Positions 1,209-32,381 of a DNA stretch of 32,500 nucleotides are shown here, one piece after another. The position numbers were made by a program, and so were the translations under genes. Below the pieces are notes generated by a model. The model ran no database searches, was not told the origin of the DNA, and saw only the letters and a list, made by a program, of their open reading frames with translations. This DNA is from Dictyostelium firmibasis. Lineage: Eukaryota > Evosea > Eumycetozoa > Dictyosteliales > Dictyosteliaceae. The stretch is taken from positions 1 through 32,500 of the forward strand of contig JAVFKY010000007.1 of the NCBI GenBank assembly GCA_036169595.1. The letters are read 5' to 3'. The number at the start of each line of letters is the position of its first letter. The first letter of the stretch is position 1.

Positions 1209-2353
1209 TTTAAAAATTTAAATAATTAAATTATATTTTATATTAAATATATATATTTAAATTTATGAATACATTTATTTATTTGAAATTCCCAAATATT
1301 TAAGATAATTTTCAGAGAAATTCAAGAGAATTTTCTGGAGATATTTTAGCTCGAAAAAATTATTGAAAAAATGAAAAATTTCGAGTTTGAAAAAAGTTGC
1401 CACGTGTCACGCACCTATTTTTTTGAGTTTTGCGAAATTTTTCAGAAAGTAAAAACAGTATAAATAGTGGCACTAAACATTGAAAACAATTTGATTTATA
1501 TGGAATTCCGACTAAGGGAGGGCGGGCTGGGACCAATTTAAATATATATATTTAATATAAAATATAATTTAATTATTTAAATTTTTAATTTATATTATCA
1601 TATATATATTTAAATTTATGAAAGTTGGACTACATTATTTAAGAAACCACCAGATTTTTCACCAATGATTTTCTTGTCATAAAAGTTATCAACTGTATCA
1701 TTTGATTTCCAACGACCGAGTTTCTTGACCACATGGAATGGAACATTGCTGGACAACAAGAGAGAAGCCATAGCGGAACGAGTAGAGTGAGATTTGAACT
1801 TTGTAATATCAATACCTGATTTTGAAAGTATTGATAAAACTATAGAGTTTATATATTCGACTGAAACTGGATTACCATCACGGAGAATGAAAACCGAATC
1901 ACCAGATGAAGTAGTTCTTCTTTGTTCAGAGTGTTTGAGGTATCTTGAAAGATGGAGAACTGGACAAATACTTGCATTTGATTCATCTAGTGAAGTTAAT
2001 TCTAAAATGGAAATATCAGCATTCTTTGTATTCCTTTGTTCTTTTGCATTGATAACAGGAGCTTTAATTGAGTGTTCAGTGATTATTAAATTCTTGTAAG
2101 ACCATTTGACCAAGTCAGATGACCTTGCTAAACCAAACATTTTACAAAGCACAAAAGTCTTATGTAGAAGAACAGAGTATGTAAACTTTGGATAAACGTT
2201 GATTGTAGATAAGTATTTGAAAACTTGATTTGCATTCCAGATTTCATTATACTTTGAGTTACTTGGACGTAACTTGTGAATACCAGTCATTATTCTTGAT
2301 ATGAACGGATCATTAACGATTTCAGATTGATTTCTAAGAATGAGCAACTGATT
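1209..2353 (-). mobile_element. DIRS-1-like retroelement, terminal piece (fossil)
   Basis: DIRS family tyrosine-recombinase retroelement, incomplete. Parts seen are one terminal repeat with a TATAAATA box (1459-1466), the internal complementary region around the GGGAGGGCGGG motif, and the C-terminal part of the recombinase. It is nearly identical to the same region of DIRS-A and DIRS-C, so it is young. The outer end abuts bacterial DNA directly; the inner end stops at the MITE at 2354. It is broken (a fragment). Confidence 0.85.
1616..2347 (-). CDS. DIRS tyrosine recombinase part (fossil fragment)
   Basis: Part of the DIRS piece at 1209-2353. The segment HSTRSAMASLLLSSNVP followed by VVKKLGRWKSNDTVDNFY is the conserved C-terminal box of phage-integrase-type tyrosine recombinases, with the HxxR motif and the nucleophile tyrosine region. 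Only the C-terminal part of the domain is present. Confidence 0.8.
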   Translation of the reverse strand: MLILRNQSEIVNDPFISRIMTGIHKLRPSNSKYNEIWNANQVFKYLSTINVYPKFTYSVLLHKTFVLCKMFGLARSSDLVKWSYKNLIITEHSIKAPVINAKEQRNTKNADISILELTSLDESNASICPVLHLSRYLKHSEQRRTTSSGDSVFILRDGNPVSVEYINSIVLSILSKSGIDITKFKSHSTRSAMASLLLSSNVPFHVVKKLGRWKSNDTVDNFYDKKIIGEKSGGFLNNVVQLS

Positions 2354-2685: not shown

Positions 2686-2853
2686 ATTCTGACGATTGGA
2701 GACCAAGAGATTGAAAATCAAACGGTCTCAGTGAGAACAAGGGATAATGTTCTACATGGTGCTATGGAAATTTCTTCCTTAGTAGCTGTTTTACAAGAAG
2801 AGGCAAAGACAAAGGTGAGAGAGTCGAGTATCTCGTCTAACAGCAAAAACTGA
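2686..2853 (+). pseudogene. thrS: Threonyl-tRNA synthetase, C-terminal fragment
   Basis: An open frame runs from the MITE edge to a TGA at 2851-2853. Residues GDQEIENQTVSVRTRDN, then ISSLVAVLQEEAKTKV, match the end of the anticodon-binding domain of bacterial ThrRS (the E. coli counterpart reads GDKEVESGKVAVRTR). Only about 55 codons remain; the catalytic core is absent, so the fragment cannot act as a synthetase. In chlamydial chromosomes thrS directly precedes a ParA/MinD-like gene and gp6D, which is exactly what follows here. The alternative, a host ThrRS exon, is unlikely given the synteny and codon use. Confidence 0.8.
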
Positions 2854-2897
2854 TTCAAAGGTATTTAGAATTATATCGTAAGGCTTATGTTCAAACT

Positions 2898-3674
2898 ATG
2901 GATATTATATCGATAGCGAGTTTTAAAGGTGGTACAGCTAAGACCTCAACTATCCTCCACATTGGATCAGCTTTTGCTAAATTTCATGGCAAAAGAGTTC
3001 TTGTCGTCGATTTTGAAGCACAAGCGAACTTAACATTAGGGCTAGGGCTTGATCCAGATCAGCATGAGAGTATGGCTCCTGTGCTTCAGGGAACAGCATC
3101 TATTTTTGATGTCATACAAAAAACAGCTATAGAAGGGCTTGATCTCATCCCTGCCGACACATGGCTTGAAACAGTCGAAGTGTCACAGGAGCGCTCGCCT
3201 CTGATAGGTATTCACATGAACGGCTTAAGAGAGCTCTTTTGCAGCTCTCCTACGATATAATTCTTATCGATACCCCCTTCACTCTCTTGGCTTACAGAAT
3301 CGGCCCTTATTGCAGCAGATCGTGTTTTGATATCTGCAACAGCCGAATTTTATAGCGTAAAAGGCCTTGAAAGATTGTCGGAATTTATCCAAACAGTATC
3401 TGAAAGGCATCCAATAGATATTATTGGAGTTCTGGTATCCTTTTGGAATACAAGAGGAAAAAATAATGATGCATTTATACGAGTGATAGAGAGAACTTTT
3501 CCAAATAAAATCCTCAACAGCAAGATACGCAAAGATGTAGCTGTATCAGAGGCTTCAGTCTATGGAAAGCCGCTCTTTGAGATCCCAAAACTCTGTAACC
3601 AAAGCCGGGCAGCTGAGGATTATCAGAATGCTGCGTCAGAAATTTTGAAGCGAATGGAGCAAAAAAGTTTATGA
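2898..3674 (+). pseudogene. ParA/MinD-like partition ATPase, chlamydial CT582 type, frame-disrupted
   Basis: The N-terminal block (2898-3260) has the deviant Walker A motif FKGGTAKTST at residues 9-18 and the Walker A' region VLVVDFEAQANLTLGL. The C-terminal block (3327-3674) contains SFWNTRGKNN, SKIRKDVAVSEAS and NQSRAAEDY, typical of chlamydial ParA-like proteins. The Walker B-like stretch (IILIDTPP) lies between them in another frame, so there appear to be two compensating frame changes between about 3230 and 3285. The start at 2898 is 44 bases after the thrS stop. The stop overlaps the gp6D start as ATGA, which suggests translational coupling in the ancestral operon. The family segregates DNA at the nucleoid or membrane in bacteria; here the gene looks inactive. 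Confidence 0.85.
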
Positions 3675-3847
3675 AAAAGCTCGATTCTATTGAGGTGTTT
3701 TCACTTACTTAAATTTAAATATTAAATTACAATTTCAAAACTTAAGATGTGTATACTTTCACAGATTTAAATTTAATTTTTGTAAAAAACATAAGCCTTA
3801 AAAAATGAATACTTTTTTTATAATTTATAAATGAAAAGATTTAATTT

Positions 3848-4923
3848 TTATTTATTGGGATTGGTTTTATTTTTTAATAGTTGAATCAATATTTCAGACA
3901 ACACTTCTAATTGGTTACTTGATCTTTCTAGTTGTGTTATTAATCTAGAGTTTAAAGAGTTATTAACACTATCTTGTTTAATTTGGTGATCTAACTTTTC
4001 TCTTTCGATCTGTTCTTGTTTTTCAAGTCTGGAGCATACCTTCCCTCTGAATGATTTTTCATCTTGAAAGATATTTGTTAAAGTTGAATAACGATCTCTT
4101 CTTACATTTGTTCTATTCTGTTGTTGAGAAGCAATATCATCAGAGATTTGGGAAGAATTTAATCTTGATTCGGTATCACCAATTACTTGAGAACTTCTTA
4201 ATTCTTTCTCTATTAATTCCAACAATTTAGAAGATTTGTTAAAATAGTTTTCACAAGTATCAAGATATAAACTGAAATTATGTTTGGAACCATATTTATT
4301 GATGTGATGACTTGTGAATCTCTTTGGACGAGTGAATGGTTTTTTCAATTTTGAATTAACGCCTCTGAGATTTGATAAGTACGACAAAGCTTGTTTGACA
4401 CTGAGATTGGTTTTATACTTTTTATTATAGTCGGAAACGGTTAATTGCATTACACTTTTGTTTGATAATGAATTGATATTCGGGTTTCTTAAATTCTTTA
4501 AATAAAATGTCAAGAATGTATGTGTTGTTTCCCAATTCCAAACATTTGAGTTTGAATCTATATCTCTGGAATCCGAGTCATCTAAATCATTATCTGACTC
4601 GCTAGAATCAAGTGATTGTTGTTGACTTTCGATATCAGTATCTTCAAACCTATTATCATTATCATTAAAAGTATCATTATCACTGTAATCATCATTTTCA
4701 TTGTTTGACAATGCAATATCATCACTATATTCTTCATTTTCACTACTAGATTCTGTTGATTCTGTTGATTCATAGTTATTATTAATATTATTTTTATTAA
4801 TATTGTTATTGTTTGATTTATCTAATTTATATTTTTTTAGATTTCTAAAATCTATTAAAACACATTTTGTTAATAAAACAATTTGTAAACTATATTATTT
4901 TTATTTTAGTAATGCATACCCAT
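3848..4923 (-). CDS. Transposon copy 1 SANT/Myb-like partner protein, two exons with a 4-base first coding exon
   Basis: The long frame (4851 down to 3848) has no in-frame ATG near its beginning. An upstream ATGG (4923-4920), followed by a 68-base GT..AG intron (4919-4852), restores an ATG start in frame and gives about 335 residues beginning MDFRNLKKYKLDK. The N-terminal third is rich in Asn, Asp, Glu and Ser. A central block (VWNWETTHTFLTFYLKNL to LSVKQALSYLSNLRG) resembles a Myb/SANT-like DNA-binding domain. A basic patch (KKPFTRPKRF) and a C-terminal coiled-coil-like region follow. PIF/Harbinger elements need such a partner to bind DNA and bring the transposase into the nucleus. The SANT assignment is by pattern only; the intron is inferred. 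Confidence 0.65.
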
Positions 4924-5442
4924 GGTGTTTAATAAAAGAATGTTATTACTTAATATATATGTTTGTTTTTGTTTTTAATAATTAAATTGTTTTGTGTAAC
5001 TTATTATAGTTTTCTAATTAAAAAATTAAAGATATTAAAAAATAAAAAATAAAAAATAATAAAAAATAAAAAATAAAATTAAAAATGTGGGTGTTTTTAT
5101 TAATTTATTTTAATAATAATATTGCCACGTGTCAATTGTTGTAAATTATCGATATAATTAAACCACATTAGGGGTAAATAATTAAATTAAATTAAATTAT
5201 TTATTTTTTTCAATTTATTTTCAATAATTTTTACCACGTGTGGGTTAGTGTTAAAAAGTAATTAAATTTAATTAAATTTATTATTTTTTTATACCACTTG
5301 CGTGAAAATAATTGTTTCACATTAATTTTCTATTCACATTAAATAATATAATTAAAAACCTATAAACTATTAATATTATATAAACTTATAAACTATAATT
5401 CCTATAAATAACAATTATTTAATTGATATAAAGTTAACTCAA
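4924..5442. promoter_or_regulatory. Divergent promoter region of transposon copy 1
   Basis: About 520 bases of AT-rich DNA lie between the two divergent transposon genes. They hold two G-box/E-box cores CACGTG: one inside TTGCCACGTGTCA (5122-5134), one in ACCACGTGTG (5233-5242), plus a degenerate third near 5292. The first 13-base string is also present in the terminal repeats of the DIRS elements at 1397, 8205 and 20060. The same region occurs in copy 3 (24640-25158). A regulatory role is inferred. Confidence 0.5.
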
Positions 5443-6881
5443 ATGGATAGTAACAATTATCGATATAATGTTGAAGAAATTTTAGATAAAAGAATTATAG
5501 ATGGTTCGATAGAATACTTTATAAAATGGGAAGGATATAGTTTTAATGAATCTACTTGGGAAATTTTAGATGATGGTTTTAATAAAAACATGTTAGAAAC
5601 ATTCGAACGAAATCGATTTGAAACAATTGTAAAAGATTTTATAAATACAAATCAATTCGATATCGATGATGTAGAAACTATTGTAGTAATAAAGATGATT
5701 ATAGCAACAATTTCCAAAATCAACTTAATAAAGAGTATTATAATTAAAAAACTTAACTCGAATACAAACATATTCAACAATGATCCATTCAGGATTTTGA
5801 ATCAACTGAATGAAAATAATGATGTTCAACAAAAGAAAATTATTAGACATAACTATATTAATATTAATAGATTGGAAAGAACAATTAAAAAGAGATATAG
5901 AAACGATACATTTGTTCCAACTCCATTAAATAAAAACCAATCTCGTAAAACTGTTAGAATATTTAAAGATTTATATCCAACTCATTACAATCAAGTAGAT
6001 GTTTACAATGAATTAGGTTTACCAATAGATCTCGTTGATGAAATTGTTAGATTGTGTAGAAACTCAGTCAAAGGGTTTAAATGTTTGTTAGATTCAAGAT
6101 TGAAAGTGTTGTTAGTATTGTTTTTTTTGAAGGTCTGTACATATTAAAAATAAGTTTTAGATTACTATTATATTAGAATATTAAATATTTTTGTCAAATA
6201 ATTTAGAAAGGACCAAATTCGACCTCATTGTTAAAGAGAATCTTTAGTATTAGTAGTGCTACTATTTCAAGAGCTGTACGTGCACTTATTCCACTTATGA
6301 TACCATGTCTTTATACCATCTCGTTGGAGTTAATGAACTTAAACTGTTTACATTATGTCGATTGTACCGATTTTAGAATCAATCGAGTGCATCCATATCA
6401 ATTCGAATGGTACAGAGGCGACTTAAAGTATCACTCTTTTACAATTCAAATACTTGTCGATGAAAATGGTACAATCGATTCTGCGATCATTGGTAAAGGT
6501 CATAATAATGATTCAGGTATGTCAATGTTAACTGGTCTTAATGATCTAATTTACTCTTTTATAAAAAACGGAGAAGAGTTTTCAGTACTTGCAGACCCTG
6601 CTTACAACGGTACCTTGTTTTATACACCAAAGAGAATCAAAAATCTTCTGGGTAAAGGTGACGAAATACTTTCCAATCAAGAAAGAAAAGTTGTGGAATC
6701 AAGATTCCATCATTTCCAAGCTGGTAAACGGTCATTGGTAGAGAACAAGTTTGCAGATATGAAGAATAGATGGGGAATAGTAAAACAAAGAGGAATTCAT
6801 CAACCAAACTTCCTTTCGTACTGTTTAATAATGATATTCCATATTGAACAAATCAATTTTAATTTAAGAAACAATAAATGA
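5443..6881 (+). CDS. Chromodomain-DDE transposase of transposon copy 1 (PIF/Harbinger type), two exons
   Basis: Exon 1 (5443-6132, 230 codons) starts MDSNNYRYN and has a textbook chromodomain at residues 8-50 (VEEILDKRI, EYFIKWEGYSFNESTWE). After a basic linker comes the start of the transposase helix-turn-helix (VLLVLFFLK). A 74-base AT-rich GT..AG intron (6133-6206) separates it in frame from exon 2 (6207-6881), which continues KGPNSTSLLKRIFSISSATISRAVRAL, the rest of that HTH. The DDE triad is likely D282 (HYVDCTD), D360 (LADPAYNG) and E409 (VENKFADMKNRW). Total length is about 454 residues. It cuts and pastes the element. The chromodomain could read methylated histone H3 and steer insertion to heterochromatin such as DIRS clusters; that role is inferred. 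Confidence 0.85.
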
Positions 6882-7858
6882 ATATATTTTTTAAAATTAT
6901 ATTATTTTTTTATTCCTTTTAAAGTTTATTTTAATTTAAAAGAGTTTTCGTCGAAAATTTGATATGTTTTACAAAAATTAAATTTAAATCTGTGAAAGTA
7001 CACCGTACTTAATTTTTGAATTTGATTTCTACAATTTACTGTAAACACCTCATTCTCCAAGACCGCCTCTCAACAAATAGCAGCTCAAATGAAAAATCTG
7101 TAAAGGTGCGATCCCTTGCCGAGAGATCAAATAGAGGAGAGCTCTCTGGATACTCCCCGCTCTTATCTACTACCGAACTCTCTCATGAAGAGAAAAAGAC
7201 CCTTGAAGCCATTTTACAGCACGACACAAAAGATGTGAAGGATACAGGTTTAGGAGATGCTCTTTTTCAAAAGAATCTCGATGAGTTGAGTCATATCACC
7301 CAAGAAGTCAAATCGATAGCTCAGCAGTCCATACTTTTGCATGGAGAGCGGATTGGCAGGGCTCAAACTCTTCTTGCCTCCTATACTGATGGAGCCTTTA
7401 GCGCTTGGCTTATCGCTATTTACGGCAACATGCAAACTCCCTACAATTTTTTACTCTACTACCAGTTTTATACAGAGATTGAAATAGCTCTTCAGCATCT
7501 TGTTGAAAGGATGCCAAAACAGGCAATCTATACTCTTGCTAGTCGAGATGCCCCTATCTCAGAAAAGGCTAAACTTGTAGAAAAGTACCACGGAGAGTCA
7601 AAAGAGATACTCTTGGAAGAGATACGAAAGCATTTTCCACTCTCCTTAGAAGACAAAAGAGCCCAACTCTCCTTTGGGAAAAAGATACATCGAGAAATTG
7701 AAAAACAGATAAAAAGTATCCAAAAGCATGCTCAAAGCTTTACAAAAGATGAAAAAAAGTGGGTAAAAGAGTCTCTTCAAAAGGCTATTGATGCGCTCTC
7801 TTAACTAAAAATAGCATAGTGCAACAGCCCATACCCGCTTCTCTTTACAACTCTTTTC

Positions 7859-8011
7859 TTAAATAGAGAAGCTTTGAGCTCCTATCATATCCACTTCGTT
7901 GCCATTCAATCTGATATCAGAGTTGCTGAAGCGTTCGACCCATCTCCCAATCCATGTAGGAGAAGATGATAAAACGCGCATCCTCTTGTCGAGCAAGCTC
8001 CTCGGCCTTTT
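7859..8011 (-). pseudogene. C-terminal fragment of an unrecognised bacterial gene, cut by DIRS-A
   Basis: A minus-strand frame of about 50 codons ends with TAA at 7859-7861. It runs back without a stop into the DIRS-A terminus at about 8012. Readable residues include LLDKRMRVLSSSPTWIGRW followed by ERFSNSDIRLNGNEVDMIG. It is convergent with gp6D, with stops about 55 bases apart. Composition is bacterial. I do not recognise the family. Confidence 0.45.
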
Positions 8012-8422
8012 TAATAATTTAAAAATTTAATAATTAAATTATATTTTATATTAAATATATATATTTAAATTTATGAATACATTTATTTATTTGAAATTCC
8101 CAAATATTTAAGATAATTTTCAGAGAAATTCAAGAGAATTTTCTGGAGATATTTTAGCTCGAAAAAATTATTGAAAAAATGAAAAATTTCGAGTTTGAAA
8201 AAAGTTGCCACGTGTCACGCACCTATTTTTTTGAGTTTTGAGAAATTTTTCAGAAAGTAAAAACAGTATAAATAGTGGCACTAAATATTGAAAACAATTT
8301 GATTTATATGGAATTCCGACTAAGGGAGGGCGGGTGGGACCAATTTAAATATATATATTTGATATAAAATATAATTTAATTATTTAAATTTTTAATTTAT
8401 ATTATCATATATATATTTAAAT

Positions 8423-9358
8423 TTATGAAAGTTGGACTACATTATTTAAGAAACCACCAGATTTTTCACCAATGATTTTCTTGTCATAAAAGTTATCAAC
8501 TGTATCATTTGATTTCCAACGACCGAGTTTCTTGACCACATGGAATGGAACATTACTGGACAACAAGAGAGAAGCCATAGCGGAACGAGTAGAGTGAGAT
8601 TTGAACTTTGTAATATCAATACCTGATTTTGAAAGTATTGATAAAACTATAGAGTTTATATATTCGACTGAAACTGGATTACCATCACGGAGAATGAAAA
8701 CCGAGTCACCAGATGAAACAGTTCTTCTTTGCTCAGAGTGTTTGAGGTATCTTGAAAGATGGAGAACTGGACAAATACTTGCATTGGATTCATCTAGTGA
8801 AGTTAATTCTAAAATGGAAATATCAGCATTCTTTGTATTCCTTTGTTCTTTTGCATTGATAACAGGAGCTTTAATTGAGTGTTCAGTGATTATTAAATTC
8901 TTGTAAGACCATTTGACCAAGTCAGATGATCTTGCTAAACCAAACATTTTACAAAGAACAAAAGTCTTATGTAGAAGAACAGAGTATGTAAACTTTGGAT
9001 AAACGTTGATTGTAGATAAGTATTTGAAAACTTGATTTGCATTCCAGATTTCATTATACTTTGAGTTACTCGGACGTAACTTGTGAATACCAGTCATTAT
9101 TCTTGATATGAACGGATCATTAACGATTTCAGATTGATTCCTAAGAATGAGCAACTGATAAAGCATTGAACGATGACTGTTAATTGTTGAATAAGCCAAC
9201 GGAGGTTGTAGCTTGAATAAATAGGTCAAATAGTCCATAAAAACTACCAGAGTAATCTTTGATGGATCCAAACGATTTAAAATACAAAAGAAATGGAACT
9301 TTGAGTAGTTTGAATCATAGACCTTTAAGGTTGATGGCTGCCAAGAGTTCATAAACAA
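8423..9358 (-). CDS. DIRS-A tyrosine recombinase ORF (fossil)
   Basis: Part of DIRS-A. An N-terminal core-binding region (FMNSWQPSTLKVYDSNYSKF) is followed by the catalytic domain with HSTRSAMASLL and LGRWKSNDTVDNFY. The family integrates circular DNA by strand exchange, which is why DIRS elements make no long target duplication. Confidence 0.8.
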   Translation of the reverse strand: MFMNSWQPSTLKVYDSNYSKFHFFCILNRLDPSKITLVVFMDYLTYLFKLQPPLAYSTINSHRSMLYQLLILRNQSEIVNDPFISRIMTGIHKLRPSNSKYNEIWNANQVFKYLSTINVYPKFTYSVLLHKTFVLCKMFGLARSSDLVKWSYKNLIITEHSIKAPVINAKEQRNTKNADISILELTSLDESNASICPVLHLSRYLKHSEQRRTVSSGDSVFILRDGNPVSVEYINSIVLSILSKSGIDITKFKSHSTRSAMASLLLSSNVPFHVVKKLGRWKSNDTVDNFYDKKIIGEKSGGFLNNVVQLS

Positions 9359-10196
9359 ATTCGAAGTACCGATTTACTTGTTTTAATTATTGACTTTACA
9401 TGAGATTGGAAAGTCGAATAATCCCCAGTTTCCATCGTTGTTGAATTTGAATTGGTATTGACTCTATCGATTCTTTTGTCAATACTTCTTGAAACGTACC
9501 CAGTACTTGAGGAAACAGATGGCGATGATGACGAGGAACTTGAGCTTGAATCATCGGAAACCAAGTTGCTGACCTCCAAATCGGGAAGATCAGTATTATA
9601 GAAACCATCTTCGAACTCAATAAGTTCATCTTCTCCATCACAGAAGGCAAAAGTATTGGAGGTGGGAACGCCAGACATTGATTCCACTGACTCCAATCGA
9701 GTTGTAGAGCATTCATTTTCATGGTTGAGTAATTGATTGTTTGATGGTTGAAGTGTGAAGCAAATAGATCCATTTGAATTTGACCGAATTGAAGTTGAAT
9801 TCGATTGAACACTTATTTCTTGAGTTGCCAGTTGTAACTCTTGATCGTCTTGGATGATTTGTGATTCATCTCTGATAGACGACTGAGGTGATCGGCTTTG
9901 ACATTGAAGAATCCTGGAATGTGTTCCCCGATCAGATTGATTTTCTTCTTGAGACATTGTTTCCATAGCTGTTCGAAGAGAGTCGATAGATCTTGAATCT
10001 GACCACCTTGGCGATTGACATAAGAGAGAGTTGTTGTGTTGTCGGTTTGAATCTTTAGATTGCAGTTGTTCAACTTCCGACATAGAGTTTGAAATGCCAT
10101 TAGTAGAGCAAGCATTTCTCGACGGTTCGATGACATGTTTGATTGGACTTCTGACCACTGGAACGACCAAGTTTTGATGACTTTGTTGTCTTTCAT
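9349..10196 (-). CDS. DIRS-A RNase H and methyltransferase-region fragments (fossil)
   Basis: Part of DIRS-A. The motif SNRREMLALLMAFQTLCRKL, then QTDNTTTLSYVNRQGG, is the RNase H end seen in DIRS polyproteins. IQMDLFASHFNHQ marks the methyltransferase-like region typical of DIRS. A Ser-rich reading frame overlaps it, as is usual for DIRS-1 coding regions. Confidence 0.65.
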
Positions 10197-10389
10197 TAAA
10201 GTTGCACCTGCACCTGATTGAGGTGTTTACAGTAAATTGTAGAAATCAAATTCAAAAATTAAGTACGGTGTACTTTCACAGATTTAAATTTAATTTTTGT
10301 AAAACATATCAAATTTTCGACGAAAACTCTTTTAAATTAAAATAAACTTTAAAAGGAATAAAAAAATAATATAATTTTAAAAAATATAT

Positions 10390-12557: not shown

Positions 12558-12853
12558 CCCTCCGAAATAAAGTATTTTTATGGTGTCTTTGGTGCATTGG
12601 TTTGTTCAGCAAAAATAATCGATCTGCACGCGAAACGGCATAATTTAATTAAAAAATATAAAATTTAAATCGAAAAAATTAAAATTTGTGTTTTTTAAAA
12701 ATAAAAATCTCATATTTTAATTAAAATTAATTTTTTTATTTTTTTTTATTTTTTTTTATTTTTTTTTATTTTTTATTTTTTTTATTTTTTTTTATTTTTT
12801 TATTTTTTTATTTTTTTGACAAATGGTATTATATTTGAAATATTGATACAATA

Positions 12854-12944
12854 AAGACGATGAAACAGAGATGGAAGATTGGGTTGAGGAACTATTTGAT
12901 CAAATAGTTCCTCATTCCAATCTCTATCTCTGTTTCATCGTCTT
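12854..12944. repeat. Near-perfect 90-bp palindrome
   Basis: Arms of about 45 bases meet at the centre TTTGATCAAA. They differ at only a few positions (around GATGGAAGATTGGG versus GATAGAGATTGGAA). Coding-like sequence on the minus strand (DVYEDEDDETEIEIGMR) reads through one arm. The mirrored copy is near 29237-29327. Confidence 0.8.
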
Positions 12945-13080
12945 CGTCTTCGTAGACATCCTGGTTATCATCTGGATTGTTTTTAGTTTTGATTATTATT
13001 ATTTTGACTTTGATTTTGATATTGGTTTTGAGAAAATTGATGATCAATTTGTAAATGGTTAGTGAAGATCACAATTATTC

Positions 13081-13855
13081 ATATGATAATGATGATGATG
13101 CATCACCCATTAATACGTTTTTGGATCGTCAAATATTGAATTCAGAAATCTATTTGATTTAAATAATACCAATACACTTCTACTACTACTTCCTCTTCAT
13201 CCATCACCTTCCAATAATCCTGCTTCTTCATCAAGATCATCACTACTCCTGCTTCACCACCGCTACTACCTCTTGATCCACCACCATCTAATACTCCTGC
13301 TTCTTCATCATGATCATCCAATACTCCTGCTTCTTCATCACAATAACAAACTCTCTTTAAATAATACCAATACTACTTCTACTACCTCTTCATCATCACC
13401 ACCATTGAATACACCTGCCTCTTTATCAAGATCATCCAATATCACCACTACCCTACCACTGCTACTGCTACTGCTACTGCTACTGCTACTGCTACTGCTA
13501 CTGCTACTGCTACTGCTACTGCTACTGCTACTGCTACTGCTACTGCTACTGCTACTGCTACTGCTACTGCTACTGCTACTGCTACTGCTACTGCTACTGC
13601 TACTGCTACTGCTACTGCTACTACCTCTTCTTCATCACCACAATCTAATACACCTGCTTCTTCATAACAATCATCTAATACACCTACTTCTTCATAACAA
13701 TCATCTAATACACCTACTTCTTCATCACAATCATCTAATACACCTGCTTCATCATCCAATACCACTACTACAACTGCCACTGCTACTAATACTACCTATT
13801 CTTCATCACCACGAAATACACCTTCTTCTTCATCTAATACTGGTACTACTTTAAG
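13081..13855 (+). pseudogene. Degenerate Ser/Thr/Pro-Asn repeat coding remnant in the CCCTCCG element
   Basis: The frame that looks most like protein reads repeats of SSNTPTSS/SSNTPASS and a Thr-Ala run encoded by the hexanucleotide repeat, ending near SSSVYQKF. It contains several TAA stops where the repeat elsewhere has TCA. The long open frames on either strand here (poly-Leu, poly-Val/Ala) are by-products of the repeat. This looks like a captured or ancestral low-complexity gene rather than a working one. Function is unknown. Confidence 0.35.
13458..13620. repeat. GCTACT hexanucleotide tandem repeat
   Basis: About 26 tandem units of CTGCTA/GCTACT. The copy in the inverted element (about 28569-28720) is two units shorter, so the array changes length between copies. 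Confidence 0.9.
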
Positions 13856-13994
13856 AATGTCTTCATCTGTTTACCAAAAATTTTAGTAAGATTATATTGG
13901 CCTGCAACCATTATGGATACAGATGGTCATCTATATATGAAGAAATAGAATATATATTAAAAATTAAGTAGGTATGAATTTTTTTAAAAAAAAG

Positions 13995-14124
13995 AAATAC
14001 ATTTATATTAATGTATATAACTTGTAGATTGACCTATTTTAAAATTTATATACAATATTGTTTATTTTAAAATTTTAAAATAGGTCAATCTACAAGTTGT
14101 ATATACATTAATATAAATGTATTT
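13995..14124. repeat. Foldback with arms of about 53 bp
   Basis: The left arm AAATACATTTATATTAATGT (13995 onward) is mirrored up to 14124, with a loop of about 21 bases. The arms carry AACTTGTAGATTGACCTATT and its complement. The corresponding foldback in copy 2 lies near 28066-28195. It could be a small nested MITE or a structural part of the element. Confidence 0.8.
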
Positions 14125-14912
14125 TAAAATGCACCTGTAAAATATAATCTAGTTATTATATATATTGTTATTATTTGTATAGTTTCAAAAAAAATGAAAT
14201 GAAAAAAAAAATAAAAAAAAATAAAAAATAAAAAAAAATATTCCCGACGAGCTGCAAAAATTTATTTCAAAAAAATTTGGGAGTGTGGTAGGTGGGATGT
14301 ATGAAATCTTGAAGTGGAGTGATGGAAATCAAAAAATTTACATATGTTCTCAGTTGCCAAATGAAAGAAGCCGTTTGTGAATATGCGAGTGAAATTTTTG
14401 TAAAAAAAAAAAAAAAATTTTAATATTACCATTTACAATTTCCTATTTATATTTATTTTTTTTATATTTTATTATTTAATTTTTTTTTGAATAATTATTA
14501 TACATAATAAAAATTTACATATAAAAAAAAAAAAAAAAAAATTTTTACTCATAAAAAAAAAAAAAAAAAAAAAAAAATCACCATTTAAAATGACATTATT
14601 ACTTTTTTTTCATAGTTATTGATTAAAAACATCTAAAACACTCATATAACCCAAGAAGATACCTTATCATAATGAAAGGGCCTGTTGTTCTGTTATGACA
14701 TGGTTATTTTGGAGTGTTGATAAGGCTTTTCAAAACTCCGCAAGATCTAAAAAAATAAAAAAATAAAAAAAAAATTTTTTTAATTTAAATTTTAATTATT
14801 TTTATTTTTATTTTTAAATTAATTTTTTCCCGGGTTATATAACAAATAAAATCGAATGCACCAGATTATTGGTCATTTTAATATGAACTTATCAATACTA
14901 AAAACCGGAGGG

Positions 14913-16182
14913 ACGATAGAGTTGTTGTGTTGTCGGTTTGAACTTTTAGATTGCAGCTCTTTAACTTTCGACAAAGTTTTTGAAATGCCATTAATAGTGC
15001 AAGCATTTCTCGACGATTCGATGACATGTTTGATTGATCGGTTGACCATTGGAAAGACCAAGTTTGTATGAGCTTGTTTCCTTTCTTTAGAGTTGCACCT
15101 GCACCTGATTCTGATGCATCTGTTGTTAACACATAATCGTAACTTGGAAAAAGACTTATTTCTTTTCCATTCCATTGGCTTAAGAGTTTTAACCAATTTG
15201 ATATTTCTATCTTTACTTCTTGAGGGATTGTAAATGATTGATCCCAATTTCCATTTGCGATAATTAAACTTTGACAATGGAACTTGTTTGTTTGTCGAGT
15301 GTATAGACGGAATGGTATTACTGCATCTTTCAATGCAATAAGCTTTCCTTTTAAACCAGCTAACTTTCTTAGAGAACATGAATCCAGTTTTAGAAAGTTT
15401 CTTATTTCTTTGATGACACTCTTTTTCTTTTTCTCCGGGACAAGCAATTTCATTGATATTGAATCGATTTCTAACCCGAGAAATGTTATTGTTTGAGTTG
15501 GTTGTAAAACACTCTTTTCTAGATTTAATTTGAATCCCAGTTTTAATAAAAGGTCCATTGTTTTGTTGAGGTTGAGAGTACATTCTTCTTTTGTTGAACC
15601 AACAATTAGAAGATCGTCCAAGTAAGCGATTACTGATACATTGATTTCTCTTAATCTTTGGAGTACTGGTCTCATTAACATTGTGAAGACTCGAGGAGCT
15701 GTTGATAATCCGAATGGCATCGTTTTCCAACGATAATGAATTCCTTTCCAAACGAACCGAAATAGGTCTCTGAATCTTTCGTCCACTAAGATATGAAGAT
15801 AGGCTTTCTTGATATCGAGTTTTACCATGTAATAACCTTGTTTCAACATTGATGAGAGATTCTTTATTCCTTCCATCTTGAATGATTGATTGCTGATGAA
15901 CTTGTTTAATCTTTTTAAATCTAGTACTGGACGAAGTAAATTCGTTCCAGCTTTTGGAACCGTAAACACGTTGGAGTAAAAAACGAGTTTTGAATAACGG
16001 TTTGGAAGTACTTGCTCTATAGCATCGTCTAGTAGCAATTCTTGTACTTCGTTTGTGATGCAATCCGTTTTCGGACCATCTGACATCGAGATCGGAATTG
16101 GGTTCAGCATCGGTTTGAAGTTTGGAAGTAGATGAATCTTTAGACCATTCACTACTTCTTGACAAAAGTTTGGAAGACCCAA
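14913..16182 (-). CDS. DIRS-B reverse transcriptase/RNase H ORF (fossil)
   Basis: Part of DIRS-B. The RT has the catalytic box VIAYLDDLLIVGSTKEE and KLDIKKAYLHILVDERF. RNase H-type TTDASESGAGATL and REMLALLMAFQKLC follow. Frames overlap in the manner usual for DIRS-1. Confidence 0.8.
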
Positions 16183-17680: not shown

Positions 17681-18072
17681 TTAATTATAATACTCTTTAT
17701 TAAGTTGATTTTGGAAATTGTTGCTATAATCATCTTTATTACTACAATAGTTTCTACATCATCGTTATCGAATTGATTTGTATTTATAAAATCTTTTACA
17801 ATTGTTTCAAATCGATTTCGTTCAAATGTTTCTAACATGTTTTTATTAAAACCATCATCTAAAATTTCCCAAGTAGATTCATTAAAACTATATCCTTCCC
17901 ATTTTATAAAGTATTCTATCGAACCATCTATAATTCTTTTATCTAAAATTTCTTCAACATTATATCGATAATTGTTACTATCCATTTGAGTTAACTTTAT
18001 ATCAATTAAATAATTGTTACTATCCATTTGAGTTAACTTTATATCAATTAAATAATTGTTATTTATAGGAAT
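17681..18072 (-). pseudogene. Chromodomain part of transposon copy 2, exon 1
   Basis: Chromodomain sequence (VEEILDKRI, YFIKWEGYSFNESTWE) on the minus strand, starting at ATG 17985-17983. It is cut at 17681 by DIRS-B. Upstream of the start a 42-bp unit (17975-18016 and 18017-18058) is repeated in tandem and includes a second copy of the ATG. Beyond 18072 the sequence becomes bacterial, so a long open frame here that begins MPFNDTQLDAL is an accidental bacterial-transposon chimera. Confidence 0.75.
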
Positions 18073-18146
18073 ATACTTGTGAGTTTTGCGGATGGAGATG
18101 TAACTCAGCTCAAGAACTGCAAGAGCATCAAGCTGAGTATCATTAA
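18072..18146 (+). pseudogene. C2H2-finger tail of a truncated gene
   Basis: The frame ends at TAA 18144-18146 and reads TCEFCGWRCNSAQELQEHQ, then AEYH. This fits the zinc-finger spacing C-x2-C-x12-H-x4-H. The upstream part is replaced by transposon copy 2. About 78 bases later a bacterial-type gene starts in the same direction, so the two may have been neighbours in one bacterial operon. The finger could also be of eukaryotic ancestry acquired by the bacterium. Short and therefore uncertain. Confidence 0.4.
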
Positions 18147-18224
18147 ATGGCATGGTGATTTAATAAGATAAAAAATAGACTCTAGCTATAACGATTTTTA
18201 CTTTTGAATATAAAGAGAGCTATA

Positions 18225-19540
18225 ATGAATGTGGGTTTTCTCTCAACGATTGTGTATGAGAAAAAAGAGCGCTGGTTCCAACACCTCCATGAACTTGCAG
18301 AAAAATGTCTCCACCTTTGGGGCAAAAATGTATACATTCTTTCAGGCTCTATCAAAGATAAAGATCTCAAAAGAGTTGAAATAAGGGAAACTCAAGACAC
18401 TCAGATTCAAGAAATTGTATTTTGCGCCCTCAAAATATTCAGCTACTTAACAGTAGTTATTCCGCTCCTTACCCTGACCTGTAAGCTCCTCTTTCGATTA
18501 AATCTTGGAGACGTCAAAATAGAGGGGACGGCAGAGAAAATAGAGCAGGTAAAAAACGCTCAAGCTGAATGTATAACTCAGGAGAAGAGGAATCTTTTAG
18601 AGAGTATCGATCAGATAGTTCTACAGGCCTCTGTTTCAACTCAATCTGACCACACGGCAGATCAAATCATAAAAACCTATATAGAAGATTGGAACCCCAA
18701 AAAAAAGTGCTTTCAATTTAAGACTGATTTTAACGTTCCTAGGTTTATAGAGAAGCTTTCTCAACATGTAGAAATATTCGCGAAAAAAGAGATAAATAAG
18801 GAGCTGCATTTTGGATATATCGACAAGGTCGATCTAGATCCCAAAAAAAATCCAAAAATCTATGTTTGAGCGGACCTTCATGGTGATCTAAAGAGCCTTA
18901 TTTAAAATCTGAGAGTGCTTAAAGAGCAGAAGCTCCTTGATAGCAACTATCGATGCAATCCGGGAGTCCACCTCATTTTTTTAGGTGACTACTGTGATAG
19001 AGGAGTCCATGGCTTGCTCATTTTAGAGCTTCTCGCTCACCTTCGAGAAGAGAATAGCGACCAAGTCCACCTTATTCGAGGAAATCATGAGTATGTTCAA
19101 ACAAATCGCGCCTATGGAAAACAAGATTCTCTCTTAGTTCAAATAGTAGAAGATATAAAACAGCAAAAAGTCCTTGAAGAATTCTATGAGACGATGTCTC
19201 TTACAACCTATTTTAGCGTGTCGGGAGAGAAGCGAAGAGAGTATGTACAGTTTACTCATGCCCTTTTTGAGCCAACCTATCAGCTCTTCTTGATCATAAA
19301 AACAATCTAACACACACCTTTATTCCAAAGACTCGCCGTTTTAGCCAGCGAATACGGCTTATAGGTCCAAATTCACCCCTCTATACAGCCTTTGAAAGAA
19401 TAAAAAATATAGTCGCCAAACATAAAGAAAATTCTAACTTGTGCGATAATAAAACAATCTATAATTGGGGAGATGTGGTAACCAAGCAGAAAAAAGAGGC
19501 TAGTTATGGGTATGCGGGCAATCGGAATTTCCGGCTATAC
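18225..19540 (+). pseudogene. PPP-type metallophosphatase, chlamydial-type, disrupted
   Basis: The start at ATG 18225 (MNVGFLSTIVYEKKERW) follows a purine-rich AAAGAGAG. An N-terminal region with one hydrophobic segment (FSYLTVVIPLLTLTCKLLF) is of a kind common in Parachlamydia/Simkania-like proteins. The phosphatase domain shows the three metal-site motifs of the PPP family: DLHGD (near 18873), GDYCDRG (near 18984) and RGNHE (near 19077). IYNWGDVVTKQKKEASYG near the end is consistent with the family C-terminus. Two in-frame stops (about 18867 and 18903) and a frame change near 19285 break the gene, and transposon DNA replaces it after 19540. Such proteins dephosphorylate Ser/Thr in other systems; here it looks dead. 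Confidence 0.75.
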
Positions 19541-19872: not shown

Positions 19873-20059
19873 TTAAAAATTTAAATAATTAAATTATATT
19901 TTATATTAAATATATATATTTAAATTTATGAATACATTTATTTATTTGAAATTCCCAAATATTTAAGATAATTTTCAGAGAAATTCAAGAGAATTTTCTG
20001 GAGATATTTTAGCTCGAAAAAATTATTGAAAAAATGAAAAATTTCGAGTTTGAAAAAAG

Positions 20060-20137
20060 TTGCCACGTGTCACGCACCTATTTTTTTGAGTTTTGCGAAA
20101 TTTTTCAGAAAGTAAAAACAGTATAAATAGTGGCACT
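20060..20137. promoter_or_regulatory. CACGTG core and TATA box in the DIRS-C terminal repeat
   Basis: TTGCCACGTGTCA lies at 20060-20072, followed by TATAAATA about 20130. The same arrangement occurs at 1397/1459 and 8205/8267. The 13-base string equals one in the transposon's divergent promoter. Role inferred. Confidence 0.45.
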
Positions 20138-20278
20138 AAACATTGAAAACAATTTGATTTATATGGAATTCCGACTAAGGGAGGGCGGGTTGGGACCAAT
20201 TTAAATATATATATTTAATATAAAATATAATTTAATTATTTAAATTTTTAATTTATATTATCATATATATATTTAAAT

Positions 20279-23029
20279 TTATGAAAGTTGGACTACATTA
20301 TTTAAGAAACCACCAGATTTTTCACCAATGATTTTCTTGTCATAAAAGTTATCAACTGTATCATTTGATTTCCAACGACCGAGTTTCTTGACCACATGGA
20401 ATGGAACATTGCTGGACAACAAGAGAGAAGCCATAGCGGAACGAGTAGAGTGAGATTTGAACTTTGTAATATCAATACCTGATTTTGAAAGTATTGATAA
20501 AACTATAGAGTTTATATATTCGACTGAAACTGGATTACCATCACGGAGAATGAAAACCGAGTCACCAGATGAAGCAGTTCTTCTTTGTTCAGAGTGTTTG
20601 AGGTATCTTGAAAGATGGAGAACTGGACAAATACTTGCATTTGATTCATCTAGTGAAATTAATTCTAAAATGGAAATATCAGCATTCTTTGTATTCCTTT
20701 GTTCTTTTGCATTGATAACAGGAGCTTTAATTGAGTGTTCAGTGATTATTAAATTCTTGTAAGACCATTTGACCAAGTCAGATGACCTTGCTAAACCAAA
20801 CATTTTACAAAGAACAAAAGTCTTATGTAGAAGAACAGAGTATGTAAACTTTGGATAAACGTTGATTGTAGATAAGTATTTGAAAACTTGATTTGCATTC
20901 CAGATTTCATTATACTTTGAGTTACTCGGACGTAACTTGTGAATACCAGTCATTATTCTTGATATGAACGGATCATTAACGATTTCAGATTGATTTCTAA
21001 GAATGAGCAACTGATTAAGCATTGAACGATGACTGTTAATTGTTGAATAAGCCAACGGAGGTTGTAGCTTGAATAAATAGGTCAAATAGTCCATAAAAAC
21101 TACCAAAGTAATCTTTGATGGATCCAAACGATTTAAAATACAAAAGAAATGGAACTTTGAGTAGTTTGAATCATAGACCTTTAAGGTTGATGGTTGCCAA
21201 GAGTTCATAAACAAATTCGAAGTACTCGATTTACTTGTTTTAATTATTGACTTTACATGAGATTGGAAAGTCGAATAATCCCCAGTTTCCATCGTTGCTG
21301 AATTTGAATTGGTATTGACTCTATCGATTCTTTTGTCAATACTTCTTGAAACGTACCCAGTACTTGAGGAAACAGATGGCGATGATGACGAGGAACTTGA
21401 GCTTGAATCATCGGATACCAAGTTGCTGATCTCCAAATCGGGAAGATCAGTATTATAGAAACCATCTTCGAACTCAATAAGTTCATCTTCTCCATCACAG
21501 AAGGCAAAAGTATTGGAGGTGGGAACGCTAGACATTGATTCCACTGACTCCAATCGAGTTGTAGAGCATTCATTTTCATGGTTGAGTAATTGATTGTTTG
21601 ATGGTTGAAGTGTGAAGCAAATAGATCCATTTGAATTTGACCGAATTGAAGTTGAATTCGATTGAACACTTCTTTCTTGAGTTGCCAGTTGTAACTCTTG
21701 ATCGTCTTGGATGATTTGTGATTCATCTCTGATAGACGACTGAGGTGATCGGCTTTGACATTGAAGAATCCTGGAATGTGTTCCCCGATCAGATTGATTT
21801 TCTTCTTGAGACATTGTTTCCAGAGCTGTTCGAAGAGAATCGATAGATCTTGAATCTGACCACCTTGGCGATTGACATACGAGAGAGTTGTTGTGTTGTC
21901 GGTTTGAATCTTTAGATTGCAGTTGTTCAACTTCCGACATAGAGTTTGAAATGCCATTAGTAGAGCAAGCATTTCTCGACGGTTCGATGACATGTTTGAT
22001 TGGACTTCTGACCACTGGAACGACCAAGTTTTGATGACTTTGTTGTCTTTCATTAAAGTTGCACCTGCACCTGATTCTGATGCATCTGTTGTTAGAACAT
22101 AATCGTAACTTGGAAACAGACTTATTTCTTTTCCATTCCATTGGTTTAAGAGAGTTAACCAATTTGAAATTTCTTTCTTGACATCTTGAGAAATTGGAAA
22201 TGATTGATCCCAATTTCCATTTGCTAGTTTCAGACTTTGACAATGAAACTTGTTTGTTTGACGAGTGTATAAACGGAATGGTATTACTGCATCTTTCAAT
22301 GCAATCAGTTTTCCTTTTAAACCAGCTAACTTTCTTAGAGTACAAGTTTCGAGTTTTAGAAAGTTCCTGATATCTTTGATGATACTCTTCTTCTTTTCTT
22401 TTGGAACAAGTAGCTTCATTGATATTGAATCGATTTGTAATCCTAGAAACGTTATTGATTGAGTTGGCTCGAGAACACTCTTTTCTAAATTTAACTTGAA
22501 TCCGAGTTTGACTAACAGATTCATTGTTTGGTTGAGGTTGTTTAAACATTCTTCTTTTGTTGAACCAACGATTAGAAGATCGTCTAAGTAGGCGATTACG
22601 GAAATGTTGATATCTCTTAGCATTCGGAGTACTGGTCTCATTAACATTGTAAAGATTCGAGGAGCTGACGATAACCCGAATGGCATTGTTCTCCATCTGT
22701 AATGAGTTCCTTTCCAAACGAATCGGAATAAATCTCGATAACTTTCGTCGACTAATACATGGAGATAAGCTTTCTTGATATCGAGTTTTACCATGTAGTA
22801 ACCTTGTTTTACCATTGAAGACAGATTCTTCAGACCTTCCATCTTGAATGATTGATTTTTGATAAAAAGGTTTAACCTCTTTAAATCTAGTACTGGACGA
22901 TGTAAATTCGTTCCAGCTTTTGGAACCGTAAACACGTTGGAGTAAAAAACGAGTTGGGAGTGACGGTTTGGAAGTACCTGTTCTATTGCATTGTCTTTTA
23001 ATAAATTTTGTACTTCGTTTGTGATGCAA
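20279..23029 (-). CDS. DIRS-C long ORF ending in the tyrosine recombinase (fossil)
   Basis: Part of DIRS-C. The recombinase occupies the last 300 or so codons (FMNSWQPSTLKVYDSNYSKF to LGRWKSNDTVDNFYDKK). The upstream codons overlap the RT ORF in another frame, the overlapping-frame layout known for DIRS-1. Confidence 0.75.
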   Translation of the reverse strand: MHHKRSTKFIKRQCNRTGTSKPSLPTRFLLQRVYGSKSWNEFTSSSTRFKEVKPFYQKSIIQDGRSEESVFNGKTRLLHGKTRYQESLSPCISRRKLSRFIPIRLERNSLQMENNAIRVIVSSSNLYNVNETSTPNAKRYQHFRNRLLRRSSNRWFNKRRMFKQPQPNNESVSQTRIQVKFRKECSRANSINNVSRITNRFNINEATCSKRKEEEYHQRYQELSKTRNLYSKKVSWFKRKTDCIERCSNTIPFIHSSNKQVSLSKSETSKWKLGSIISNFSRCQERNFKLVNSLKPMEWKRNKSVSKLRLCSNNRCIRIRCRCNFNERQQSHQNLVVPVVRSPIKHVIEPSRNACSTNGISNSMSEVEQLQSKDSNRQHNNSLVCQSPRWSDSRSIDSLRTALETMSQEENQSDRGTHSRILQCQSRSPQSSIRDESQIIQDDQELQLATQERSVQSNSTSIRSNSNGSICFTLQPSNNQLLNHENECSTTRLESVESMSSVPTSNTFAFCDGEDELIEFEDGFYNTDLPDLEISNLVSDDSSSSSSSSSPSVSSSTGYVSRSIDKRIDRVNTNSNSATMETGDYSTFQSHVKSIIKTSKSSTSNLFMNSWQPSTLKVYDSNYSKFHFFCILNRLDPSKITLVVFMDYLTYLFKLQPPLAYSTINSHRSMLNQLLILRNQSEIVNDPFISRIMTGIHKLRPSNSKYNEIWNANQVFKYLSTINVYPKFTYSVLLHKTFVLCKMFGLARSSDLVKWSYKNLIITEHSIKAPVINAKEQRNTKNADISILELISLDESNASICPVLHLSRYLKHSEQRRTASSGDSVFILRDGNPVSVEYINSIVLSILSKSGIDITKFKSHSTRSAMASLLLSSNVPFHVVKKLGRWKSNDTVDNFYDKKIIGEKSGGFLNNVVQLS
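21253..22935 (-). CDS. DIRS-C reverse transcriptase/RNase H/methyltransferase-region ORF (fossil)
   Basis: Part of DIRS-C. RT core KLDIKKAYLHVLVDES and catalytic VIAYLDDLLIVGSTKEE, then RNase H (TTDASESGAGATLM) and the DIRS methyltransferase-like region (IQMDLFASHFNHQ). Confidence 0.8.
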   Translation of the reverse strand: MFTVPKAGTNLHRPVLDLKRLNLFIKNQSFKMEGLKNLSSMVKQGYYMVKLDIKKAYLHVLVDESYRDLFRFVWKGTHYRWRTMPFGLSSAPRIFTMLMRPVLRMLRDINISVIAYLDDLLIVGSTKEECLNNLNQTMNLLVKLGFKLNLEKSVLEPTQSITFLGLQIDSISMKLLVPKEKKKSIIKDIRNFLKLETCTLRKLAGLKGKLIALKDAVIPFRLYTRQTNKFHCQSLKLANGNWDQSFPISQDVKKEISNWLTLLNQWNGKEISLFPSYDYVLTTDASESGAGATLMKDNKVIKTWSFQWSEVQSNMSSNRREMLALLMAFQTLCRKLNNCNLKIQTDNTTTLSYVNRQGGQIQDLSILFEQLWKQCLKKKINLIGEHIPGFFNVKADHLSRLSEMNHKSSKTIKSYNWQLKKEVFNRIQLQFGQIQMDLFASHFNHQTINYSTMKMNALQLDWSQWNQCLAFPPPILLPSVMEKMNLLSSKMVSIILIFPIWRSATWYPMIQAQVPRHHRHLFPQVLGTFQEVLTKESIESIPIQIQQRWKLGIIRLSNLM

Positions 23030-23200
23030 TGAGGTGTTTACAGTAAATTGTAGAAATCAAATTCAAAAATTAAGTACGGTGTACTTTCACAGATTTAAAT
23101 TTAATTTTTGTAAAACATATCAAATTTTCGACGAAAACTCTTTTAAATTAAAATAAACTTTAAAAGGTATAAAAAAATAATATAATTTTAAAAAATATAT

Positions 23201-24639: not shown

Positions 24640-25158
24640 TTGAGTTAACTTTATATCAATTAAATAATTGTTATTTATAGGAATTATAGTTTATAAGTTT
24701 ATATAATATTTATAGTTTATAGGTTTTTAATTATATTATTTAATGTGAATAGAAAATTAATGTGAAACAATTATTTTCACACAAGTGGTATAAAAAAATA
24801 ATAAATTTAATTAAATTTAATTACTTTTTAACACTAACCCACACGTGGTAAAAATTATTGAAAATAAATTGAAAAAAATAAATAATTTAATTTAATTTAA
24901 TTATTTACCCCTAATGTGGTTAAATTATATCGATAATTTACAACAATTGACACGTGGCAATATTATTATTAAAATAAATTAATAAAAACACCCACATTTT
25001 TAATTTTAATTTTTATTTTTTATTATTTTTTATTTTTTATTTTTTAATATCTTTAATTTTTTAATTAGAAAACTACAAAAAGTTACACAAAACAATTTAA
25101 TTATTAAAAACAAAAACAAACATATATATTAAGTAATAAAATTCTTTTATTAAACACC
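24640..25158. promoter_or_regulatory. Divergent promoter region of transposon copy 3
   Basis: The counterpart of 4924-5442. TGACACGTGGCAA (24948-24960) is the complement of the TTGCCACGTGTCA string; a second CACGTG lies in CACACGTGGT (about 24840-24849). The rest is A/T-rich sequence with short homopolymers and no coding signal. Confidence 0.45.
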
Positions 25159-26234: not shown

Positions 26235-26561
26235 AAATTAAATCTTTTCATTTATAAATTATAAAAAAAGTATTCATTTTTTAAGGCTTATGTTTTTTAC
26301 AAAAATTAAATTTAAATCTGTGAAAGTATACACATCTTAAGTTTTGAAATTGTAATTTAATATTTAAATTTAAGTAAGTGAAAACACCTCAATCTGATTT
26401 CGGACCCTCTGGAATTGAAATCGGAATTGGGTTCAGCATCGGTTTGAAGTTTGAAAGTAGTGGAACCTTCAATCCGTTTACTACTTCTTGACAAAAGTTT
26501 GGAAGACCCAATTCTTTCCAAACTTGTTTGAAGTGGACGAGACGTCCACCTACTGGTAAGT

Positions 26562-29620: not shown

Positions 29621-29657
29621 TAGCTAGCAAGCAATGACTCTGATAGTTGATAATCAG

Positions 29658-30513: not shown

Positions 30514-32092
<1,579 letters not shown>

Positions 32093-32381
32093 GTATGTAT
32101 ATTTTTGGAAGTGTGGGAAGCTGAACAAATAAATTTTTCTTTTTCAATTTTTCAATTTTTTTTTTAAAAATTTTATTTTCAAATCATTCACCTCAAATAA
32201 AACATACTTTACATTATTTATTACTTATTTGTTTATTTTATTTGTTAATTTTATTTTGTGTTTGTTTATTTTTTACAATAATCAATTATAATATATAGTT
32301 TCACGATGTTTTTTGTTTTTTTATAACTATATGCATATATACTAAAGTGTTGTTGTTTTTATTTTTATCCATTAATAAAAG
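32093..32381 (+). other. Possible 289-base intron, or 3' flank of the zinc-finger gene
   Basis: GTATGT at 32093 and AG at 32381 flank AT-rich sequence with no other coding signal. If it is not spliced, the gene ends at 32124 with AATAAA-like sequence (acaaataaatt) just after the stop. Confidence 0.4.

Follow-up and report, generated by a model that had tools for sequence, protein, structure and literature searches.

Transposon-interrupted chlamydial genes in Dictyostelium firmibasis, very probably decaying nuclear insertions of endosymbiont DNA

Genes and mobile elements at the locus

This study concerns a block of three bacterial genes, thrS, parA and gp6D, in the genome of the social amoeba Dictyostelium firmibasis. 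The block lies in a stretch of 32,500 bases (the window), which forms bases 1-32,500 of C7, a DIRS-rich contig of 118,457 bases. Papers given here by PMC number are cited from parts of their text. The assembly of strain TNS-C-14, of 31.5 Mb, was built from nanopore reads and comprises six main contigs (9.4 to 3.9 Mb) and six small ones (118 to 24 kb), two of these small contigs consisting mainly of DIRS1 fragments; mean depth was 199x for long reads and 540x for short reads, and its authors removed contigs of bacterial origin (by blastx) and contigs below 50x (PMC11193728). As searched by us it holds 31,455,843 bases in 12 contigs, including C1 (9,412,997 bases) and C11 (23,628 bases). DIRS clusters contain few genes and many small RNAs, and chromosome 1 at 4.5-4.8 Mb, described by the assembly authors as covered by DIRS1, has low mRNA coverage and high small-RNA coverage (PMC11193728). 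Such clusters are regarded as centromeres (PMC12324515). The block and the elements around it are arranged as follows, MITE denoting a miniature inverted-repeat transposable element and ORF an open reading frame.

1210-2353, minus strand: 3′ part of a DIRS-type element, with a tyrosine recombinase ORF at 1616-2347, ending at the MITE; 98-100% identical to the copies at 8018 and 19873
2354-2685, no strand assigned: MITE of 332 bp, GAGGTACTTTCAC...GTGAAAGTACCTC, flanked by ATT/ATT, with DIRS to its left and thrS to its right
2686-2850, plus strand: 3′ end of thrS (anticodon-binding domain), from PF03129 and tblastn matches to chlamydial thrS C-termini
2898-3674, plus strand: chlamydial parA pseudogene, from its domains, two frame breaks and best match P0241
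3671-3691, plus strand: 5′ end of gp6D up to the transposon, overlapping the parA stop
3692-7051, no strand assigned: DNA transposon of 3,360 bp within gp6D, ATT on each side, with a chromodomain ORF (5443-6147) and a DDE_Tnp_4 ORF (6228-6881)
7055-7804, plus strand: remainder of chlamydial gp6D (UPF0137/CT583 family), from PF03677
7805-8017, no strand assigned: non-repeat tail after gp6D up to the next DIRS end, unique on C7, its origin judged from its position
8018-10219, minus strand: DIRS-type element with a recombinase frame at 8423-9358, from repeat identity and frames

The initial annotation of this DNA had named the three genes from family motifs, and profile searches bear the names out. 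At 2686-2850, HGTP_anticodon (PF03129) matches with an E-value of 6e-7 and runs to the last profile position; the match to the NCBIfam thrS model is below its cut-off. AAA_31 and CbiA cover 2898-3260 of parA and CbiA covers 3327-3674, the gene being in three frame pieces with breaks near 3216-3218 and near 3275-3280. The gp6D remainder at 7055-7804 matches PF03677 with an E-value of 1.4e-62. The predicted ATGA shared by the parA stop and the gp6D start is present at 3671-3674. The initial annotation also proposed that chlamydial gene order and spacing had been kept: the order agrees with that of chlamydial loci (see below), but not the spacing, because the 3,360-bp transposon parts parA and the 5′ end of gp6D from the remainder of gp6D. 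The claim that the block sits between DIRS elements is supported by domains and repeat identity, with the amendment that the MITE separates the left DIRS piece from thrS. That annotation missed the breaks in parA and the splitting of gp6D by a DNA transposon that is not of DIRS type.

Assignment of the surrounding elements to the DIRS type is supported by the copy at 14878-16182, which has reverse transcriptase (PF00078) and RNase H (PF17917) domains, and by that at 20279-23029, which has the tyrosine recombinase domain PF00589; the elements flanking the block are also of DIRS type by repeat identity. The transposon within gp6D belongs to a different class. PIF/Harbinger elements are recognized by a DDE_Tnp_4 transposase, terminal inverted repeats and a 3-bp target duplication. 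Here the transposase is DDE_Tnp_4 (PF13359), and the ends, GAGGTGTTT/AAACACCTC, have ATT or AAT on each side in both C7 copies that retain both ends; by transposase, ends and 3-bp duplications the chromodomain/DDE element is therefore PIF/Harbinger-like. Five further MITE copies with both ends (L002, L005/L112, L006/L111, L007 and L008) are flanked by 3-bp duplications of CAT, ATT or AAT. Because MITE and transposon have similar ends (GAGGT...ACCTC) and the same kind of 3-bp duplication, the MITE is probably mobilized by the chromodomain/DDE transposase. At three places (L003, L004/L114 and L006/L111) the two elements adjoin, separated by no more than ATT or AAT. The MITE at 2354-2685, which is bordered by DIRS and by thrS, may reflect recombination between copies or else insertion at the precise position of a pre-existing edge.

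Chlamydial affinity of the block

When the 249-residue part of gp6D was used as a protein query, 407 homologues were returned, of which 120 were listed. All 120 contain PF03677, and the four whose names show the organism are chlamydial. Synteny and the ParA tree were examined at the best 80 of 169 gp6D relatives found by alignment search in genome contigs, so the loci are picked by gp6D; by title, 66 are of Chlamydiota type, 9 belong to Verrucomicrobia(ota) and 1 to Aerophobetes, and 4 read 'bacterium'. The order thrS-parA-gp6D on one strand occurs at 74 of these 80 loci and parA-gp6D at 77. Six loci lack the full order (three without a thrS match, one without parA and two with gp6D alone). 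ParA rows were obtained from 73 of the 80 loci, and in a tree made by quick search, with Shimodaira-Hasegawa-like approximate likelihood ratio test (SH-aLRT) support, the window row pairs with P0241 (SH-aLRT 100), surrounded by chlamydial rows. Thirteen of the 14 loci not titled Chlamydiota-type entered the tree, and all 13 fall among chlamydial rows. Within the phylum of L023, gp6D was found in 210 of 232 genomes; PF03677 is absent from all 14 control genomes. The chlamydial origin first suggested for the block thus stands up to protein comparison.

How close the relatives are differs from gene to gene. The best ParA match is P0241, 'MAG: ParA family protein [Chlamydia sp.]', at 92% (88-92% across the pieces in the window), and the best match of DusB, encoded by a further piece described below, is P0121, at 93%. 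Runner-up identities are 76% for ParA (P0242) and 76% for DusB (P0122), and gp6D matches P0001 at 54%. The genome collections hold no close gp6D or DusB: among the matches listed from the 232 genomes, gp6D reaches 45% in the best match by E-value and at most 50% over shorter stretches, and DusB reaches at most 59% among those listed. Three Dictyostelium isolates with Chlamydiae have been described, along with two complete circular symbiont genomes of 1.5 Mb (preprint, PMC12324515), and the closest ParA and DusB proteins may come from living Dictyostelium symbionts.

Scattered chlamydial pieces on C1

The block belongs to a wider set of pieces, which the initial annotation did not detect, scattered over C7, chromosome 1 and perhaps chromosome 3. 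We sampled nine 10-kb stretches of C1 between 4.50 and 4.61 Mb, partly picked near earlier matches and hence not random. Non-repeat blocks of bacterial appearance occur in five of the nine and total ~16.6 kb, a sum that excludes amoebal- or retroelement-looking blocks (L106:1-1686, L112:1-1431, six stretches of L110 and L111:9773-10000) and one half of L109; on C7, three stretches of which read N, they amount to ~6.2 kb. At the level of the assembly, the chlamydial pieces are embedded in C1 at 4.53-4.65 Mb.

These pieces recall a chlamydial neighbourhood. At loci L025, L026 and L023 the gene order is omp-like, hypothetical, thrS, parA, gp6D, and matching amoeba pieces are found in L114 (C1:4592.2-4593.5 kb), L111 (C1:4541.0-4546.9 kb) and C7:2.7-7.8 kb. 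In L111, the hypothetical gene and the 5′ part of thrS remain head to head, and the former is split by the transposon (L111:2226-5585) and the MITE (5589-5920), with AAT triplets. At L102, dusB lies ~2 kb past gp6D; the amoeba has two dusB copies (C1:4534759-4535804 and C1:4573294-4574698), the latter adjoining YggT (PF02325). Four dusB matches of more than 60 residues are 92-94% identical to P0121, and a fifth is 70% identical and has two stops. The C1 cluster also holds a SycD/LcrH-type chaperone (below the family cut-off) and a SecA-like fragment, and a further piece is a RecD C-terminus; the SecA and RecD matches are below whole-protein cut-offs. The type III system protein FHIPEP is matched nowhere in the assembly, and insertion of a whole symbiont genome is accordingly unsupported.

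Host transposons with target-site duplications thus lie inside three chlamydial genes, namely gp6D, dusB and the hypothetical neighbour of thrS. In L112, dusB holds a MITE between two ATT triplets, and at the same place in L105 it is uninterrupted, with one ATT. Duplicated stretches differ from one another by 0.4 to 1.5% in substitutions, one piece having been copied once it was inserted. The split genes and the filled and empty sites indicate that the elements moved after this DNA sat in a genome where they were active and, at dusB, after its duplication.

Elsewhere on C1, outside the DIRS cluster, a ParA-like piece with two stops (C1:437933-438148, PF13614) was seen; the chlamydial ParA query gave no match there.

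A second thrS-parA-gp6D block

Searching the assembly with thrS of L025 located pieces at C1:4541008-4541679, C1:4648710-4650367, C3:4859157-4859576 and C7, with one weak match on C5; two further matches, in three pieces at C3:1401-1404 kb and in one frame at C4:1086 kb, are probably amoebal synthetase genes. The second C1 piece belongs to another thrS-parA-gp6D block, also absent from the initial annotation, on the minus strand at C1:4647267-4650367 and containing stops, in which parA (C1:4647961-4648702) and gp6D (C1:4647267-4647953) directly adjoin thrS. Its gp6D is only 42% identical to that of the window, and its ParA is 58-63% identical to P0241, compared with 88-92% for the window ParA. 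As judged from these sequences, the second block would likely represent a second chlamydial donor lineage. The piece at C3:4859157-4859576 is a chlamydial-type thrS fragment, 60% identical to that of L025, and may mark a third insertion place.

Decay of the transferred genes

Frames are broken in the window parA, the C1 thrS, the second parA on C1, the C7 gp6D and both dusB copies; in one dusB copy, codons 83-357 are still open. ParA shows 13 changes on the amoeba branch versus 2 on that of P0241, with 3 unpolarized, among 256 compared positions (p 0.007). For DusB, the counts for amoeba versus living relative are 9 versus 6 (5 unpolarized, of 268) and 4 versus 6 (1 unpolarized, of 191). Loss of function is therefore evident from the breaks in parA, thrS, the C7 gp6D and dusB; faster change is seen in ParA only.

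Origin of the pieces and alternative readings

We consider it highly likely that the block belongs to DNA of chlamydial endosymbionts that was inserted into the nuclear genome of D. firmibasis and is decaying there, cut up by host transposons within centromere-like DIRS clusters. Fragments of symbiont chromosomes would have reached the nucleus, perhaps out of lysed bacteria, and would have been end-joined into the gene-poor, silenced, centromere-like DIRS clusters, where inserted DNA would cost little and be lost slowly. DIRS elements, the Harbinger-like transposon and its MITE would have kept inserting into the decaying DNA and into one another, and the pieces would have been scattered by recombination between copies; at least two transfers, from different chlamydial lineages, would have taken place. 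A broader proposal, to which we give an even chance, is that DIRS clusters trap the DNA of successive chlamydial symbionts, such that centromeric DNA preserves at least two infections in layers and a considerable part of the chromosome 1 cluster is captured bacterial DNA.

Several points weigh against nuclear insertion as set out here. The junctions are taken from the published assembly, and the C1 cluster was sampled in part. Several bacterial-looking blocks (for example, 1-1209) are without a homologue and were placed by composition and position, and the C1 5′ piece and the C7 3′ end of thrS would, judging by gene order, once have been one gene. Despite the 92% ParA relative, the gp6D matches listed do not exceed 56% identity where most of the length is covered, and a single partial match has 59% identity at a coverage of 53%; gp6D may be absent from the living relative or have been lost there. 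The gp6D frame of the second block is open over 253 aa, and the DusB copies show no acceleration over the living relative in the rate comparison. These last two observations, together with the open codons 83-357 of one dusB copy, would also suit genes retained for a working role in the amoeba. We find such a role very improbable, as parA, thrS, the C7 gp6D and both dusB copies are disrupted by frame breaks, stops or insertions, the chromosome 1 region combines low mRNA with high small-RNA coverage (PMC11193728), and little decay in recent inserts requires no selection. The transferred copies look like dead passengers.

Both thrS-parA-gp6D blocks could instead derive from one donor carrying paralogues or a plasmid, given that parA-gp6D paralogues occur on chlamydial plasmids and that a minority of the 232 phylum genomes show two or three gp6D matches. 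This is unlikely: most listed genomes have a single gp6D match, thrS adjoins parA in the second block too, as on a chromosome, and DnaB_C, a plasmid helicase family, matches only at C3:1327 kb and C1:7092 kb, away from the block. A chlamydial plasmid would be expected to carry a DnaB-type helicase beside parA-gp6D and no thrS. With thrS present at both blocks and no such helicase nearby, a plasmid source is rejected, in agreement with the initial annotation, which had favoured the chromosome. Finally, reads of a live symbiont in the culture might have been falsely joined to DIRS contigs during assembly. Repeats favour false joins. E. coli served as food and the authors applied a step to remove bacterial contigs (PMC11193728). 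Such an error is at odds with the 3-bp duplications around elements within chlamydial genes and with a filled and an empty dusB site in the same genome. The chlamydial genes are broken, the duplicates diverge by 0.4-1.5% in substitutions, the two gp6D sequences are only 42% identical and many pieces lie inside the 9.4-Mb C1 contig; the mean long-read depth of 199x and the contig floor of 50x (PMC11193728) also speak against it. We therefore hold an artefact to be most improbable and favour nuclear insertion, and residence in a dictyostelid nuclear genome, as first proposed, is supported by the host elements inserted into the pieces and by their place within C1. The objections raised above leave intact the central observation, a single chromosome contig that combines chlamydial gene order, duplication-flanked host elements and both states of the dusB site.

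Relation to known transfers

Chlamydial-type genes in photosynthetic eukaryotes are old and functional, whereas the DNA described here consists of recent-looking, collinear, broken chromosome pieces. What the two share is the presence of chlamydial genes in eukaryote nuclei (PMC2490706). Wolbachia insertions in insects and nematodes (Glossina, PMC3998919; woodwasp, PMC8962096; filariae, PMC2882956) likewise place DNA of an intracellular symbiont in the host nucleus; here, the donor is a member of the Chlamydiota, the host a social amoeba and the sites centromere-like DIRS clusters, with probably two lineages involved. Nuclear copies of mitochondrial and plastid DNA (NUMTs and NUPTs; PMC7037861, PMC6376042) also come from an intracellular source, which in the present case is a non-organellar endosymbiont. 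Giant-virus endogenizations in Acanthamoeba, for which silencing has been discussed, are similarly pieces of a foreign genome in an amoeba nucleus (PMC12210455), but those are viral and in a different amoeba, and these are bacterial. Nuclear insertion of symbiont DNA is thus a kind of event already known; what is probably new is the combination of chlamydial donors, probably two in number, DIRS clusters and a social amoeba. Our literature search, with supplements and most subscription papers outside it, found no paper that describes chlamydial DNA inserted into the nuclear genome of a Dictyostelium species, and the D. firmibasis genome paper (PMC11193728) nowhere uses 'Chlamyd' in its main text.

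Chlamydiae have often been proposed as past gene donors to eukaryotes, and raw, collinear nuclear insertions would expose the transfer step itself. Dictyostelids are tractable, host chlamydial symbionts now and have near-complete assemblies, so that the capture, silencing and decay of symbiont DNA could be tested and set side by side in different species. The pieces form a little-known fossil record of past infections, probably by internal symbionts. They also carry a warning for annotation: filters for bacterial contigs leave such DNA in, and symbiont surveys made from host assemblies may mislead.

Other features of the window

The remaining features are listed below.

1-1209, no strand assigned: bacterial-looking block with a guanine-cytosine fraction of 0.37, sequence unique on C7, at the contig edge, containing ORF 357-818
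18071-19540, plus strand: hypothetical gene (18192-18866) and calcineurin-like phosphoesterase fragment (18906-19307; PF00149, E-value 6e-9), with stops between them
19873-23030, minus strand: DIRS-type element with a recombinase domain frame at 20279-23029, from PF00589, repeat identity and frames
23031-26390, no strand assigned: another complete copy of the chromodomain/DDE transposon with AAT on each side, inverted and 99% identical to 3692-7051

Block 1-1209, including ORF 357-818, has no Pfam, NCBIfam or chlamydial match; its composition and neighbours suggest that it may be chlamydial. The tRNA scan of the window and the Rfam scan of the window and five chromosome 1 loci gave no match. 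Block 18071-19540 has protein relatives in 2 of 20 chlamydial genomes, and its phosphoesterase stretch matches the Wip family of NCBIfam weakly, below the cut-off. The stretch at 18192-19307 has a related counterpart at C7:71365-72002, with 79-81% DNA identity over 333 and 146 bases, both being decayed.

Inverted repeat pairs with (ACTGCT)n-type repeats, 85-100% complementary in pieces, lie at 12558-14917 and 27283-30047. An ORF rich in asparagine, with Cys/His motifs, occupies 30514-32124; a similar frame is found at C7:76406-78085, and similar frames begin at C7 positions 99605 and 112392 and continue into stretches that read N. The ORF is probably a mobile element gene.

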